A stretch of DNA of 21,160 nt. Source: a virus. The notes under the pieces are model-generated. The model was not told the DNA's origin and searched no databases. It saw nothing but the letters and a program-made list of their open reading frames with translations. The position numbers and the translations under genes are program-made. Below, in pieces: positions 2,863 through 8,227 of the stretch. The DNA is taken from IMG/VR virus record IMGVR_UViG_3300006928_000127, positions 1 through 21,160 of that record; one strand, written 5' to 3'. The number at the start of each line of letters is the position of its first letter. Within the stretch, counting starts at the first letter, position 1.

Positions 2863-2986
2863 TAAGGCTACAATCCAGGATATCATACGAGAGATGTTGA
2901 AATGCCCACGGGTAACAACAGAGGATGTGATCCACATTATTAGGTTGCGACAGGAAGAACTATCACAGGAACCTGAGCATGAATGA
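2852..2986 (+). CDS. Small hypothetical helical protein, 44 aa
   Basis: ATG 2852 lies inside the end of the previous gene (an 11-base overlap), and the TGA at 2984-2986 overlaps the start of the sigma-like gene. The product is a charged helical peptide (ENNKATIQDIIREMLK, then TTEDVIHIIRLRQEEL). No membrane segment and no recognised family. It is supported by its exact fit between two overlapping genes and by protein-like composition, with GACAGGGGG upstream as a possible ribosome-binding sequence. Confidence 0.5.
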   Translation: MENNKATIQDIIREMLKCPRVTTEDVIHIIRLRQEELSQEPEHE

Positions 2987-3551
2987 AAAAGAGATTGTAA
3001 AGATGTGTGATAGGTTGGCCTACAAGTACAACAACAAAGGACACAGAGAGGATATGAAGATGGAAGGTATCCTAAAGTGCTACGAGATACTTGGGGAAGA
3101 ACCTAATGTCCATCCAGCGAAGCTCTACCGTGAGGCTAAAAGGCGTATGCACGACTATATAAACCTCGATATAAAGCCTGTGTCCATCCCTAAGCACAGT
3201 AGATCACGTAGGCTTGTGTATAACCCAGAGGATAATAACTCAGGGGATATGTCTGAGGATGGCTATGGGTGGCTGAGGGCTGTCCTGACAACCTATGATG
3301 TATCCTACGACGAAGACTACGGCATGTCAGATAAGGATCATGTTGTGGAATACGAGAGAAAGGAACAAGCAGACCACATAAGAAGTGTTGCATCTGAGAC
3401 ACTATCTGCAACTGAATTGTACATAATCCAGCTTAGGTACTATCAAGACCTAACACAATATGAGGTAGGTATAATGCTTGGTACTAACAAGATGTGGGTA
3501 TCTAGGCACGAAAAAGCTGCGTTAAAGAAGTTAGGAAAGGAGTTATTGTAA
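2979..3551 (+). CDS. RNA polymerase sigma-factor-like protein
   Basis: The 190-residue protein reads like a shortened sigma-70-family factor. Residues about 8-40 (MCDRLAYKYNNKGHREDMKMEG) resemble region 2 of SigB/SigF-type sigmas, where a similar GH-ED-EG pattern occurs. 'KPVSIPKHSRSRR' (66-78) resembles the start of region 3. Residues 138-190 are a convincing region 4: 'SATELYIIQLRYYQDLTQYEVG' then a helix-turn-helix, 'GIMLGTNKMWVSRHEKAALKKL'. The middle (residues 80-130) is acidic and unlike the family. A phage sigma would redirect host RNA polymerase. A promoter-like site begins 11 bases after its stop, fitting an early-to-middle switch (inference). It could instead be a sigma-like DNA-binding regulator that does not bind core polymerase. 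Confidence 0.7.
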   Translation: MNEKEIVKMCDRLAYKYNNKGHREDMKMEGILKCYEILGEEPNVHPAKLYREAKRRMHDYINLDIKPVSIPKHSRSRRLVYNPEDNNSGDMSEDGYGWLRAVLTTYDVSYDEDYGMSDKDHVVEYERKEQADHIRSVASETLSATELYIIQLRYYQDLTQYEVGIMLGTNKMWVSRHEKAALKKLGKELL

Positions 3552-3561
3552 CAATTCGTGA

Positions 3562-3592
3562 TGTTACTAAATATTAGAAATGTCCCTATAAG
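3562..3592 (+). promoter_or_regulatory. Promoter-like element, copy 1
   Basis: TGTTAC (3562-3567) is followed after 17 bases by CCTATA (3585-3590), within the longer block AAATGTCCCTATA (3578-3590). The same hexamer, spacing and 13-base block recur at 7602-7630 ahead of the ssDNA-binding protein gene. These are the only two sizeable gene-free gaps in the + block. The 17-base spacing matches sigma-70-type promoters, with TATAAG (3587-3592) an alternative -10. Transcription would enter the primase-helicase gene through a leader of about 90 bases. Which sigma factor reads it is not shown. Confidence 0.65.
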
Positions 3593-3605
3593 CAAGTGTA
3601 GGGAT

Positions 3606-3657
3606 TACATAAGTATTAACTTTAGTATTTAAACTAGATCAGTTAAATACTTATGTA
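3606..3657 (+). repeat. Long imperfect inverted repeat in primase-helicase leader
   Basis: ACATAAGTATTAAC (3607-3620) and GTTAAATACTTATGT (3642-3656) are inverted copies with a single extra A in the right arm. One more T-A pair (3606/3657) and a 21-base spacer complete the structure. Within the spacer, TAGT and ACTA (around 3623-3636) form a smaller inner repeat. In RNA this makes a 15-pair, A/U-rich stem. In DNA it is a dyad downstream of the promoter-like site. No U-run follows, so a terminator is unlikely. An operator for a dimeric repressor or an mRNA-stabilising leader hairpin are the likeliest readings. Confidence 0.6.
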
Positions 3658-3687
3658 TAACTTAAGTACAAGGAAGGTCGTTATAAT

Positions 3688-5250
3688 ATGGCTGAACACG
3701 GACACCAACCATGCCCATATCAATCGTGTGGCTCTTCCGATGCCTTCAGTTACAACACTGAGGGCTACGGCAAGTGTCACGCCTGTAACAGAAGCTACCC
3801 GTCCAATGGAAATATGTATGAGTGGGCGAAGGATAAATACCCAACAAAAGAAAGGGACGATTATATGTCGTTTACACCAAAACTGATCGAAGATGTATCA
3901 AACGGTGAGTATGTCAATATGCGTGGCATCAACACTAAAACGATGGAAGACTTCGGCGTACTGACTTGGGATGACCGTCAAGAGTACGTATACCCCAGCG
4001 GTGGAATTAAGGTTCGTAAACTGTCGGAGAAAGGTTTCTACGCTAAGGCAGGTTTCAAAGGTGATGAACTCTTCGGTATGAATCTGTTTACTGCTGGTAG
4101 CTCTAAGATGGTAACGATCACAGAAGGTGAACTAGACGCCCTATCTGTGGCTCAGATGCTCAAGAGTGGCTACACTAACCCTGTGGTATCTCTACCGTCT
4201 GCTACACCGTCTAAGAAGCTATGGGAGAACTGTGCTGACTGGCTCAACAGTTTTGAGAAGATTATCCTGTCAGTTGACAATGATGAAGCTGGTAATGCTC
4301 TTGCTGATCGTGTGTCCAAGCTGTTCCCTAACAAGGTCTACCGTGTTGACCACAGACCCTACAAGGATGCCAATGAGTTCCTACAGGCTGGTAAGGCTGC
4401 TGACTTCAAAGGTGCATGGTGGAACGCACGTAAGTTCACACCTGAGAACGTGATGAACAGCACACAGGACTTCTTGTCGTTGTACAAGGATACACCTGAG
4501 CACCAGTATATACCAACGGGTATACAGGCATTAGACGATAAAATACTTGGTCTCATGCAGGGTCACTTCACAGTGATTAAAGCACCTACAGGTATCGGCA
4601 AGACCGAGATCATGCGTTACCTTGAGTACAATATGCTACAGCGTAAGGTTCCTATCGCAGCATGGCACTTGGAAGAGACTAAGCTACGATCCCTGCTTGG
4701 TCTTGTGTCATACGAATGTGGGGATAACCTAACACGTAGGGACTTGATCGAAGAGAAGGGTGCAGAAGATCAGGTAGTACAAGCTATCGGTAGGCTAACC
4801 GCCGACGAAAACTTCTACCAGTTTTACTTAAGTGATGGTCAGGGTGCTGACGATCTGATCGACCAGATACGTTACTTTGCTGTAGCCTGTGGTGTTAAGT
4901 TTGTATTCTTTGAGCCTATCCAAGATGTGCTTGTAGGATCATCTGATGAGAGTAAGGAACAGATGTTAGCTGACCTGTCAGTACGTCTATCCAAACTGTC
5001 TGCTGAGTTGAACGTAGGTATCGTGACCATTGCTCATACTAATGATGATGGTCAGATGAAATACTGTCGTATGATCGGACAACGTGCTTCGGTTATCATT
5101 GACCTTAAACGTGATAAAGAAACTACAGACCTACAGGAGCGTAACACAACGTACCTGTCCATAGAAAAGAACCGTCCCTGTTCAGAAGAAGGTAATGCAG
5201 GGATGATGCGATTTAACACAGACACATTCATACTAAGCGAGGTGATATGA
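3688..5250 (+). CDS. T7 gp4-like primase-helicase
   Basis: This bifunctional replication protein unwinds the fork and primes the lagging strand. The 520 residues show the T7 gp4 order. A zinc-binding domain comes first, with C9, C14, C30 and C33 (CPYQSC and CHAC). The TOPRIM primase core follows, with 'ITEGELDALS' (144-153, E147) and 'SVDNDEAGN' (195-203). The RecA-like hexameric helicase domain has Walker A 'KAPTGIGKTE' (298-307) and 'WHLEETK' (326-332). The Walker B region reads 'VKFVFFEPIQDV' (403-414), with Glu-Pro where T7 has Asp-His. The length is slightly below T7 gp4 (566). The start is preceded by AAGGAAGG, and the stop overlaps the next gene as ATGA. Upstream lie the promoter-like site and the inverted repeat. 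Confidence 0.93.
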   Translation: MAEHGHQPCPYQSCGSSDAFSYNTEGYGKCHACNRSYPSNGNMYEWAKDKYPTKERDDYMSFTPKLIEDVSNGEYVNMRGINTKTMEDFGVLTWDDRQEYVYPSGGIKVRKLSEKGFYAKAGFKGDELFGMNLFTAGSSKMVTITEGELDALSVAQMLKSGYTNPVVSLPSATPSKKLWENCADWLNSFEKIILSVDNDEAGNALADRVSKLFPNKVYRVDHRPYKDANEFLQAGKAADFKGAWWNARKFTPENVMNSTQDFLSLYKDTPEHQYIPTGIQALDDKILGLMQGHFTVIKAPTGIGKTEIMRYLEYNMLQRKVPIAAWHLEETKLRSLLGLVSYECGDNLTRRDLIEEKGAEDQVVQAIGRLTADENFYQFYLSDGQGADDLIDQIRYFAVACGVKFVFFEPIQDVLVGSSDESKEQMLADLSVRLSKLSAELNVGIVTIAHTNDDGQMKYCRMIGQRASVIIDLKRDKETTDLQERNTTYLSIEKNRPCSEEGNAGMMRFNTDTFILSEVI

Positions 5251-5729
5251 CACAAAGAAATCAAAAGTCCGTTACGGAAGGTACTGACGCAGAGAGACAC
5301 TTTATTTCTCTCAGAGGTTCAAACTTCATACGCAAATCAACACGAGATGAGGACATCCACGAACACTGGGATGTGTTGGATAAAGAGTTTGGTCGAATTG
5401 ACGTTAAGGCAGCTAAGAGGATGTTCAGAGGTGGAGACATAGACCATACAATCTGGTGGGAACTAAAGACTGTCAATCGCCCCCCCGAATGGAAACCAAA
5501 GAAAGGTTGGGGCGTACCAAACGGTATTGATCGACTTATTGCAGTTAGGGGTGAAAATGCCTTTTACTTAATTAGACCAGAAAGTATCATAGATGATTTG
5601 AGAGAGCGGTGTACTAAGTATTATCGTGGCGAGTTCGGTCTTTATGGTCGAGAGGGTCGTGGTGACTTAACAACAATACTACCTTTGTGGTATGTAGAGG
5701 AAAATGCGGAAGTTTACTTGGAGGTATGA
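5247..5729 (+). CDS. Probable PD-(D/E)XK endonuclease
   Basis: The 160-residue protein carries a plausible PD-(D/E)XK core. E16 lies in the first helix, 'STRDEDIHEHWD' spans 31-42, and 'RIDVKAAK' (50-57) offers D42, D52 and K54 as metal-binding and catalytic residues. 'WWELKTVN' (70-77) follows. The 'DI-EHWD ... DVKA' pattern is shared with small nuclease-like proteins I recall from marine phages, and a related fold is used by Holliday-junction resolvases. It lies between primase-helicase and polymerase, overlapping the former by 4 bases and ending directly before the latter, so a role in replication or recombination is likely. No other resolvase is visible besides endonuclease I. Function is inferred. 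Confidence 0.55.
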   Translation: MTQRNQKSVTEGTDAERHFISLRGSNFIRKSTRDEDIHEHWDVLDKEFGRIDVKAAKRMFRGGDIDHTIWWELKTVNRPPEWKPKKGWGVPNGIDRLIAVRGENAFYLIRPESIIDDLRERCTKYYRGEFGLYGREGRGDLTTILPLWYVEENAEVYLEV

Positions 5730-7574
5730 ATGACAACAGTATATGACATTGAAACAGACGGTCTATTAGATGAGTTGACCAAGATTCATGTCTTGTCTTA
5801 TTCAGATGATGGTAAGACGGTACATCATACGCATGACTACGATGAAATGCGTGAGTTCTTTACTACACGCAAGGCACTTGTAGGTCACAATCATGTTCGC
5901 TTTGATATACCAGCGGTGGAAAAGGTGCTAGGCATTGAGGTAAAGGCTCGTCTGATCGACACTCTAGCGTTATCTTGGTATCTACACCATGACCGTATGA
6001 AGCATGGGCTTGAGGGCTACGGAGAGGACTATGGAGTGCCTAAGCCTGTCATTAAGGACTGGGACAGCCTGACACCAGAAGAGTACGCTCACAGGTGTGA
6101 TGAGGACGTTAAGATCAACGTGCGTCTATGGCGTGACTTAGACCTTAAGCTCAACAAGCTGTACCAAGACTCAACTGAGAAGGATCGTCTGATCGACTAT
6201 CTTACATTCAAGCTAGACTGTGCAAAAGAACAAGAGACCCTACGATGGAAATTAGACGTAGACAAGGCACAGGTAGCCTACGACGAAATCATGGCACTAA
6301 AGATAGAGAAGGTAGACCAACTAGCAGAGGCCATGCCAAAGAAGACACTCACCCGTGTAGCTAACCAGCCAAAGGTTATGCACAAGAAGGACGGTGATCT
6401 ATCGTCACATGGGGAGAAATGGGTAGCACTCTGTAAAGAGTATATGCAGCCCGTTACAACTCAATCTTTTGTCGTTAAGACAGGAGAAGAGAGGGGAAAC
6501 CCTAACAGCAACGACCAAGTAAAAGACTGGTTATATTCACTGGGGTGGAAGCCTCGTACATATAAATTCCTAAGAGATAAGGTGACAGGTGATGAACGAC
6601 AGATTGAACAGGTACGAAAAAATGGAGAGTTATGTCAAAGTGTCAGAGAGCTTGCAGAGGTTGACCCGTCTGTTGATCTTCTGGATGGTCTCACAGTTCT
6701 TACTCACCGTGCTGGTATTCTTAAAAGTTTCCTAGAGTGTCACAAGGACGGATGGCTAGAAGCTAGTGTAGCTGGTCTCACTAATACCTTTCGCTTCAAA
6801 CACTTTCGCCCACTGGTAAACCTACCTAGCGTAGACAAGCCATACGGTGATGTTATCCGTGGTTGCCTAACGTGTCCTGATGGCTATGTGTTAGCTGGTG
6901 CTGACATGACCAGCCTAGAGGATACAACTAAGCGACACTACATGAAGCCACTAGACCCTGAGTACGTAGAACAGATGAGTAAAGAAGGTTTTGACCCACA
7001 CTTAGACTTAGCTCTACACGCTGGTGTTATCTCACAAGATGACATCGACAAGCACAACTCAGGAGAAAGGTCACTGAAAGCACTACGTAAGAATTACAAG
7101 GTGGTGAACTACAGTGCTACGTATGGTGTAGGAGCGCCTAAGCTGGCCCGTGAGACAGGTATGACCCAACGTGAGGCTAAGACCCTACTAGAAGCGTTCT
7201 GGTCACGTAACTGGGCTATTGAGAAGGTGGCAAGCACACTACGTACACGGGAGCTATTTGGTTCTATGTGGCTCAAGAACCCTGTGTCTGGATTCTGGTA
7301 TAGCCTACGTAGTGATAAGGATCGGTTCAGTACACTCAACCAAGGCACAGGTGTATACTGCTTTGACAGTTGGGTTAAGGAGTGTCGTGGTATGGGTCTG
7401 GAGACCATAGGTCAGTTCCACGATGAGATCATAGTTTTAACAAAAGAAGGAGATGAAGATAAGGCAGAGAATATAATGCAGATGAGCATTAACAACGTGA
7501 ACCATGAGATAAACTTGAACGTACCATTAGGGACAGATGTTCAATTTGGTAACACGTATGCAGACATACATTAA
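5730..7574 (+). CDS. DNA polymerase, family A, T7-like
   Basis: This is the replicative DNA polymerase with proofreading. The exonuclease domain shows 'YDIETDG' (5-11; D6, E8), 'HNHVRFDIP' (53-61; D59) and 'HRCDEDV' (121-127). The polymerase domain has motif A 'GADMTSLED' (390-398; D392, E397), the O-helix 'RKNYKVVNYSATYG' (453-466; R453, K457, Y461, Y465) and motif C 'FHDE' (563-566). Y461 occupies the E. coli 762 position. Tyr here favours dideoxy incorporation and, in marine phage surveys, goes with fast lytic phages. Motif A lacks the Arg that follows E-L in T7 and has D-T-T-K-R-H instead. At 614 residues it is about 90 shorter than T7 gp5. GGAGG precedes the start. Confidence 0.95.
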   Translation: MTTVYDIETDGLLDELTKIHVLSYSDDGKTVHHTHDYDEMREFFTTRKALVGHNHVRFDIPAVEKVLGIEVKARLIDTLALSWYLHHDRMKHGLEGYGEDYGVPKPVIKDWDSLTPEEYAHRCDEDVKINVRLWRDLDLKLNKLYQDSTEKDRLIDYLTFKLDCAKEQETLRWKLDVDKAQVAYDEIMALKIEKVDQLAEAMPKKTLTRVANQPKVMHKKDGDLSSHGEKWVALCKEYMQPVTTQSFVVKTGEERGNPNSNDQVKDWLYSLGWKPRTYKFLRDKVTGDERQIEQVRKNGELCQSVRELAEVDPSVDLLDGLTVLTHRAGILKSFLECHKDGWLEASVAGLTNTFRFKHFRPLVNLPSVDKPYGDVIRGCLTCPDGYVLAGADMTSLEDTTKRHYMKPLDPEYVEQMSKEGFDPHLDLALHAGVISQDDIDKHNSGERSLKALRKNYKVVNYSATYGVGAPKLARETGMTQREAKTLLEAFWSRNWAIEKVASTLRTRELFGSMWLKNPVSGFWYSLRSDKDRFSTLNQGTGVYCFDSWVKECRGMGLETIGQFHDEIIVLTKEGDEDKAENIMQMSINNVNHEINLNVPLGTDVQFGNTYADIH

Positions 7575-7601
7575 AAAAAGTAAAATAAATGTACGAATTA
7601 G

Positions 7602-7632
7602 TGTTACAAATCTCAAAAAATGTCCCTATAGT
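7602..7632 (+). promoter_or_regulatory. Promoter-like element, copy 2
   Basis: TGTTAC (7602-7607), a 17-base spacer and CCTATA (7625-7630) repeat the element at 3562-3590. The block AAATGTCCCTATA (7618-7630) is identical in both, while the sequence between hexamer and block differs. TATAGT (7627-7632) is a good alternative -10. It lies 57 bases before the ssDNA-binding protein gene and would drive the second half of the + block. The preceding A-rich run (7571-7590) could act as an UP element. Confidence 0.65.
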
Positions 7633-7648
7633 ATATTACCAACATAGT

Positions 7649-7665
7649 GCTGTAAACCCTACAGC
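7649..7665 (+). repeat. Small perfect hairpin in SSB leader
   Basis: GCTGTA (7649-7654) and TACAGC (7660-7665) are perfect inverted copies around a 5-base loop AACCC. The structure would sit about 12 bases into a transcript started from the 7602-7632 site, where 5' hairpins commonly protect phage messages from decay. The SSB ribosome-binding sequence AAGAGGAAA begins 7 bases downstream and stays free. No U-run follows, so it is not a terminator. Confidence 0.4.
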
Positions 7666-7687
7666 TTAAACAAGAGGAAACCCGACT

Positions 7688-8227
7688 ATGGCTAAACACA
7701 CAATGGATATGGTTCTTGAGTACGCAAAAGTGTTTGAAGAGAACCGTGATATGGGTGGCGACCAAAATAATGCAGCCAAGAAAGCAGCCAAACATAACGG
7801 TCAGTATGTGACAAACGCATACTTTACTGACGAAGGCCAGATCACAGAATTACTTGAAGGTGGGCTAGACCCAAAGCCTATGGGTAATGATCGTATCAAA
7901 GAAGGTAGTAGCTTTGGTATCGGTAAGTATGTCAAACTGACACGTATGCATGATCACGTTATGACATTTACGGACAAGAGGGGTAACCCGACTGAGGTAG
8001 ACTTCGGTGGCGCACCAGTAGTTGTCAACATAACAAACGGACTTGAGAATAAGTCTCTCTGGTCTTTTGATGGAGATGGAACACTAGGTAACGGTACTAA
8101 AGCTAAGGTGCAGTTTGAGACCTACTCTAAGGGTGCTGGTGTTCGATTAATTGCTATTGCGGTTACAGACCATGTAGCGTGGGAAGAAATTTCGTCAGCA
8201 GACGATGAAATCTTTATGGTAGGATAA
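7688..8227 (+). CDS. T7 gp2.5-like single-stranded DNA-binding protein
   Basis: The C-terminal two thirds of this 179-residue protein match the gp2.5 OB-fold layout. There is a 'MTFTDKRGNPTEVDFGGAPVVV' strand pair, then 'DGTLGNGTKAKVQFETYSKG', then 'GVRLIAIAVTDHVAWEEI', followed by a short acidic tail ending in Phe-Met-Val-Gly (SSADDEIFMVG). In T7 the acidic tail with a terminal aromatic residue contacts polymerase and helicase. Here it is short and less acidic. The N-terminal 50 residues are helical and unlike gp2.5. The gene has its own promoter-like site and a leader hairpin, fitting a protein needed in bulk. Its neighbours are exonuclease and endonuclease I, as in T7-like replication clusters. 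Confidence 0.72.
   Translation: MAKHTMDMVLEYAKVFEENRDMGGDQNNAAKKAAKHNGQYVTNAYFTDEGQITELLEGGLDPKPMGNDRIKEGSSFGIGKYVKLTRMHDHVMTFTDKRGNPTEVDFGGAPVVVNITNGLENKSLWSFDGDGTLGNGTKAKVQFETYSKGAGVRLIAIAVTDHVAWEEISSADDEIFMVG

Follow-up and report, generated by a model that had tools for sequence, protein, structure and literature searches.

A putative three-promoter regulon read by a phage sigma factor, with repeated changes of promoter specificity among related phages

Phage sigma regulons are already known, and the kind of system described here is not in itself new. In phiEco32 and phage 7-11, for example, the phage sigma factors gp36 and gp47 direct the host polymerase to a few middle or late promoters at conserved positions, and the promoters of phage 7-11 are bipartite, with the form GTAAtg-(16)-aCTA (PMC8948821). 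These two sigmas share about 15% identity and have been judged to be independently acquired (PMC8948821). In E. coli sigma70, residues R584 and E585 have been tied experimentally to bases of the -35 element (PMC2613000), with Q589 also listed for that element (PMC4943231). The reading domains can also be exchanged in the laboratory: Rhodius et al. (2013) found that chimeric ECF sigmas with swapped -10- and -35-reading domains read matching hybrid promoters (PMC3817407), and a hybrid sigma of Kumar et al. (1995) is among the work cited in that paper. The locus studied here has relatives that include the isolate CRP-6, whose phage group has been reported to be widespread in the ocean (PMC6918029). 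Neither a sigma factor nor a promoter is mentioned in the CRP-6 paper, and none was found described for this group in the open-licence literature.

The window analysed is an entire IMG/VR record, a fragment of 21,160 bases. The original prediction held that a promoter-like element, TGTTAC followed after 17 bases by CCTATA, occurs in the only two sizeable gaps of the + block. This proved exact: across the whole window TGTTAC-N10-AAATGTCCCTATA has two perfect matches, at 3562-3590 and 7602-7630 on the + strand, with the same layout and differing 10-base spacers (TAAATATTAG and AAATCTCAAA), and none of 100 dinucleotide-preserving shuffles contains a match. Copy 1 lies in a gap of 136 bp (3552-3687) and copy 2 in one of 113 bp (7575-7687), the largest among the main + strand genes. 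The window holds no third copy, as had been judged by eye, since the next-best place when both blocks are scored already has 4 mismatches (- strand, 7554) and the remainder at least 6; the 13-mer AAATGTCCCTATA alone finds no match with fewer than 3 mismatches elsewhere in the window. What had been missed is that a sigma factor is encoded by the gene whose end lies 10 bp before copy 1. The features are as follows.

2979-3551, + strand: gene of a phage sigma-70-family factor of 190 amino acids, the proposed reader of both elements (Pfam and PHROG matches)
3189-3215, + strand: sigma codons 71-79, PKHSRSRRL, region 3.0 segment, which tracks the block upstream of the -10 (partial Mantel test and column covariation)
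3489-3506, + strand: sigma codons 171-176, KMWVSR, start of the region 4 recognition helix, in which 171, 172 and 176 track the -35 bases and 175 does so more weakly (residue-base tables and column ranking)
3547-3561, + strand: TGTAACAATTCGTGA, a conserved stretch between the sigma end and site 1
3562-3590, + strand: putative promoter site 1, preceding the primase-helicase unit
3563-3567, 3580-3586 and 3587-3592, + strand: parts of site 1, namely the -35 core GTTAC, the block upstream of the -10, and the -10 TATAAG
3599, about 2 bases either way, + strand: predicted transcription start of site 1, from alignment to sigma70 numbering
3688-5250, + strand: primase-helicase, the first gene after site 1 (PHROG DNA primase/helicase, 1.2e-99)
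7602-7630, + strand: putative promoter site 2
7603-7607, 7620-7626 and 7627-7632, + strand: parts of site 2, namely the -35 core GTTAC, the block upstream of the -10, and the -10 TATAGT
7639, about 2 bases either way, + strand: predicted transcription start of site 2, from alignment to sigma70 numbering
7688-8227, + strand: first gene after site 2, called SSB-like from its position and its acidic tail only

The two-block drawing stands, with a change of boundaries: the -10 is better written as TATAAG or TATAGT, and the TGTCC just upstream of it would form the second contact block. With the conserved TA of the -10 set as -12/-11, transcription is predicted to start near 3599 and 7639, close to the 3597 and 7637 proposed earlier. 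Copy 1 does precede a primase-helicase. Copy 2 precedes the gene at 7688-8227 as stated, and the product of that gene, labelled an SSB, finds no match among the families of Pfam or PHROG. A small hairpin, GCTGTA-AACCC-TACAGC (7649-7665), also lies close to where the site 2 transcript is predicted to begin.

The window's sigma protein matches the helix-turn-helix of region 4, Pfam Sigma70_r4 (PF04545), at 3.5e-11 and the PHROG family "RNA polymerase sigma factor" at 1.8e-10, and Sigma70_r4 is matched by all 18 aligned sigma relatives. Sigma70_r2, the region that sigmas need to bind core polymerase and melt the -10, is matched weakly by 10 of these 18 (best 0.0012), and the window protein gives no match to it at 0.1. 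Searched as a profile against the PDB, the sigma finds SigB-, SigF- and FliA-type sigmas as best matches, and its predicted fold matches whole SigB, sigma32 and ECF sigma chains of initiation complexes, at low TM-score. The AlphaFold model is confident for region 4, with a helix at 171-189, and uncertain in its whole-chain arrangement (pTM 0.38); it was left out of reasoning about domain arrangement. The region 3.0 motif IPxH is present as SIPKH, and its H is replaced in many other lineages. The counterpart in CRP-6 is gp14, annotated as hypothetical, and comparison of the relatives makes it clear that the sigma genes are recombinant.

Related phages had been suggested as a place to look for the element. 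Among 2.9 million viral contigs of IMG/VR, the exact element occurs in 19 stretches, every copy lying at one of three homologous places with none scattered: after the sigma gene and before the primase (site 1), between polA and the next gene (site 2), and upstream of the terminase small subunit (site 3), the last lying outside the window fragment. The earlier division into two transcription units has to be extended, the proposed regulon having three, with a third copy before the terminase and structural operon. A near-complete relative of 46,072 bases has exactly 3 perfect copies of its own version of the element. The window's own motif has no match in CRP-6, where reading the homologous gaps directly gave a different motif; that isolate has exactly 3 copies of its own version, of which one departs from the pattern at a single base. 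All other places in either genome have at least 6 mismatches to the genome's own element. At these three places the relatives have sequences that differ, and the 29-bp layout stays the same. A few shared elements before middle or late transcription units mark phage sigma regulons such as those of phiEco32 and 7-11, and here they lie at three places only.

Several other features of these regions can be recorded. The stretch TGTAACAATTCGTGA has a single copy in the window and is not present at sites 2 and 3. Nearly all relatives keep it; since it is kept even where the sigma reading frame crosses it (ending CNNS), it seems to be selected as DNA or RNA. The leaders after site 1 (window 3600-3670) and after site 3 of relatives (for instance 6068, 6136 and 6206 in L106) contain repeated ACTTAAGT-like palindromes, which were not seen after site 2 and are a possible operator or RNA element. 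In several relatives (L014, 6435-7331; L016, 2189-3061) a gene judged by eye to be ParB-like separates site 1 from the primase; no such gene is present in the window. In CRP-6 (L051), the genome end at 44332-44927 has about 10 copies of an iteron-like GTGACATTTTTGCAAC-like unit, and the annotated start of the primase (4327) is probably too late, since the tblastn match begins at 4201.

Variation among relatives makes it possible to ask which sigma residues go with which bases. Across 84 non-redundant pairs of sigma and site 1, residue 171 predicts base 5 without exception, K going with A (28/28), Q with T (50/50) and R with C (6/6). Relative to the sigma stop codon, the 29-mer of the CRP-6 type begins one base later than all others, and the constant length of 29 bp was used to fix its register by hand; 6 of the 28 K:A cases rest on this register, and when they are removed the counts are 22/22, 50/50 and 6/6. 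Residue 172 goes with base 4 (M with T in 22 pairs, Q with G in 29, T with A in 8, R with C in 4, K with C in 15 and with A in 3), and residues 171, 172, 175 and 176, taken as a quartet, determine bases 2-6 in 83 of the 84. A ranking of single residues puts 171 first for bases 5 (r 1.0) and 6, 172 first for base 4 (0.86) and 176 first for bases 1 and 2. Given the other regions, distance between -35 blocks depends on region 4 (partial r 0.29, p 0.001; 58 non-redundant pairs) with the rest near zero, and this dependence also holds with 83 pairs. The rule was also kept by pairs fetched after it had been formed, in which base 5 was right in 24/24 and, where the quartet had been seen before, the pentamer in 15/16. 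Residues 171, 172 and 176 align with E. coli sigma70 R584, E585 and Q589 (TNKMWVSRHE against the sigma70 segment TRERIRQIE). In the proposed explanation region 4 would read the -35 block, base 5 being recognised by residue 171, base 4 by residue 172 and base 2 by residue 176.

Care must be taken here with linkage and with shared ancestry. Site 1, whose first base comes 11 bases after the sigma stop codon, directly adjoins the gene segment for region 4, so that recombination, evident in these sigma genes, might move both together with no functional contact. As for shared ancestry, a sigma tree from which region 4 was left out shows 20 changes of residue 171 and 20 of base 5; there are 15 independent pairs, all of those tested agreeing, 6 of them on well-supported branches and in the same direction (sign test p 0.03). 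An artefact of linkage is extremely improbable in our view, because the rule is kept in 46 of 48 copies at sites 2 and 3, which lie at 4 kb and at a much greater distance and which agree with site 1, and because region 3 tracks its own block despite looser linkage. The two failures are contigs in which site 3 was not located (L097 and L146).

The second block follows another part of the protein. Over 58 pairs and given the other regions, distance in this block, which lies upstream of the -10, follows mainly region 3 (partial r 0.41, p 0.001); the linker contributes slightly (0.18) and region 4 does not (0.02). The same picture is seen with 83 pairs, where region 2 contributes as well (0.23). 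For instance, HSR goes with TGT, HNI with TAT, KSRTIRDI with GGGTCAC, SRSATEV with GGGTCTA and SRTADSL with ATGTCTA. The tree test for region 3 has only 2 independent events on supported branches, too few for significance. With this qualification, region 3 is the candidate reader of the block just upstream of the -10. Each block thus co-varies with a different DNA-reading region of the adjacent sigma, in the correct order along the DNA, which strongly supports both the promoter reading and the earlier argument for two contact blocks. These results also bear on the idea that some other phage activator or repressor uses the elements as operators and that the sigma gene is a mere neighbour. A fixed position before transcription units and only three copies per genome would suit operators, but a bystander protein would not have two of its regions tracking the two blocks in the order of a promoter, through residues that align with the base contacts of sigma70, and we hold this idea to be scarcely credible.

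In natural chimeras the two halves are exchanged. In L036-L039, a window-like region 4 (KMWVSR) is combined with an L024-like region 3 (AHNITRRL), and the promoter is TGTTAC with TATATCCC, one half from each parent type. In L095 and L096, KMWVSR is joined to KSRTIRDI and the promoter is TGTTAC with GGGTCAC. L023 is as the window over residues 1-60, followed by an L024-like region 3 and another region 4, and its promoter follows both. Across the phage group, the two reading regions appear to have mutated and recombined separately, with all three promoters following.

The sites of one genome change in concert. For sites 2 and 3 of relatives the first match was taken, not a later TATAGTA, and in 42 comparisons the sites of the same contig differ by 34 mismatches in total, against a mean of 254 and a minimum of 192 when contigs are shuffled; metagenomic contigs may be chimeric, and related contigs in these counts are not mutually independent. 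Of the 42 comparisons, 36 have an identical -35 core and 33 an identical block upstream of the -10, and the spacers differ at 4.4 of 10 positions. One contig is clearly discordant: in L033, site 3 (TGTATAA, GGGTCACTATA) is of another specificity than its own site 1 and sigma, and the contig is a chimeric assembly or else a genome in the middle of such a change.

One alternative is that these are sigma70-type promoters of the host, kept because early or middle genes depend on them, and TATAAG and TATAGT do resemble TATAAT, a simple scan listing 7603-7632 as a 9/12 match. The window as a whole has 37 sigma70-like matches against 37.2 in shuffles, so that TTGACA/TATAAT pairs show no excess over chance, and the -35 block of the element is unlike TTGACA. 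A host sigma also leaves unexplained the exceptionless tracking of bases by phage residues and the joint change of three sites, and we regard this alternative as very improbable. The specificity of the element instead appears to be set by the phage sigma, as far as sequence comparison can tell.

We consider it very likely that host RNA polymerase, when it carries the sigma encoded by the phage (2979-3551), uses these elements as promoters, which form a three-promoter regulon that has repeatedly changed specificity. Early + strand genes, including that of the sigma at the end of the early block, would be read by the host holoenzyme, the sigma gene presumably from a host-type promoter upstream. 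Once made, the sigma would direct the host core polymerase to the three promoters, and use of the host enzyme fits with the CRP-6 annotation, which has no polymerase gene. Site 1 would switch on the primase-to-polymerase unit for replication, site 2 the SSB-like gene through the end of the + block, and site 3 the terminase and structural operon on the opposite strand. A further and tentative suggestion, which we think rather doubtful, is that promoter specificity is under diversifying selection, as private transcription locks re-keyed by point changes in the recognition helix and by exchange of sigma halves. If so, the locks could perhaps stop co-infecting relatives from firing each other's replication and structural genes, and contigs such as L033 would be snapshots of ongoing change.

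One homologous lineage supplies about 20 combinations of recognition residues with their natural promoters in one fixed layout, together with chimeras of the reading domains. This makes it possible to test how far -35 recognition by sigma follows a simple code from amino acid to base, and how a regulator and all of its own sites shift specificity together. Matched pairs of sigma and promoter are also candidate orthogonal promoters, and a function can be proposed for CRP-6 gp14, hypothetical in its record.

Compared with E. coli sigma70, the residues aligned with R584 and E585 likewise co-vary with the -35, and the region 3.0 helix likewise tracks DNA upstream of the -10 (PMC2613000). The spacing and sequences differ from the sigma70 consensus, and the covarying bases of the second block, 20-21 (about -18/-17 in our own numbering), lie further upstream than the -14G of sigma70. 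The likeness to phiEco32 and 7-11 is in the few phage-sigma promoters at conserved genome positions. There, unrelated sigmas read different promoters, whereas here one homologous lineage has many specificities, reached by point changes and domain exchange with a near-deterministic correspondence of residue and base. Changing the specificity of ECF sigmas is reportedly also the subject, by its title, of Todor et al. (2020, PNAS). The engineered ECF chimeras were built in the laboratory, whereas a like exchange has apparently happened repeatedly in nature here, with whole regulons following.
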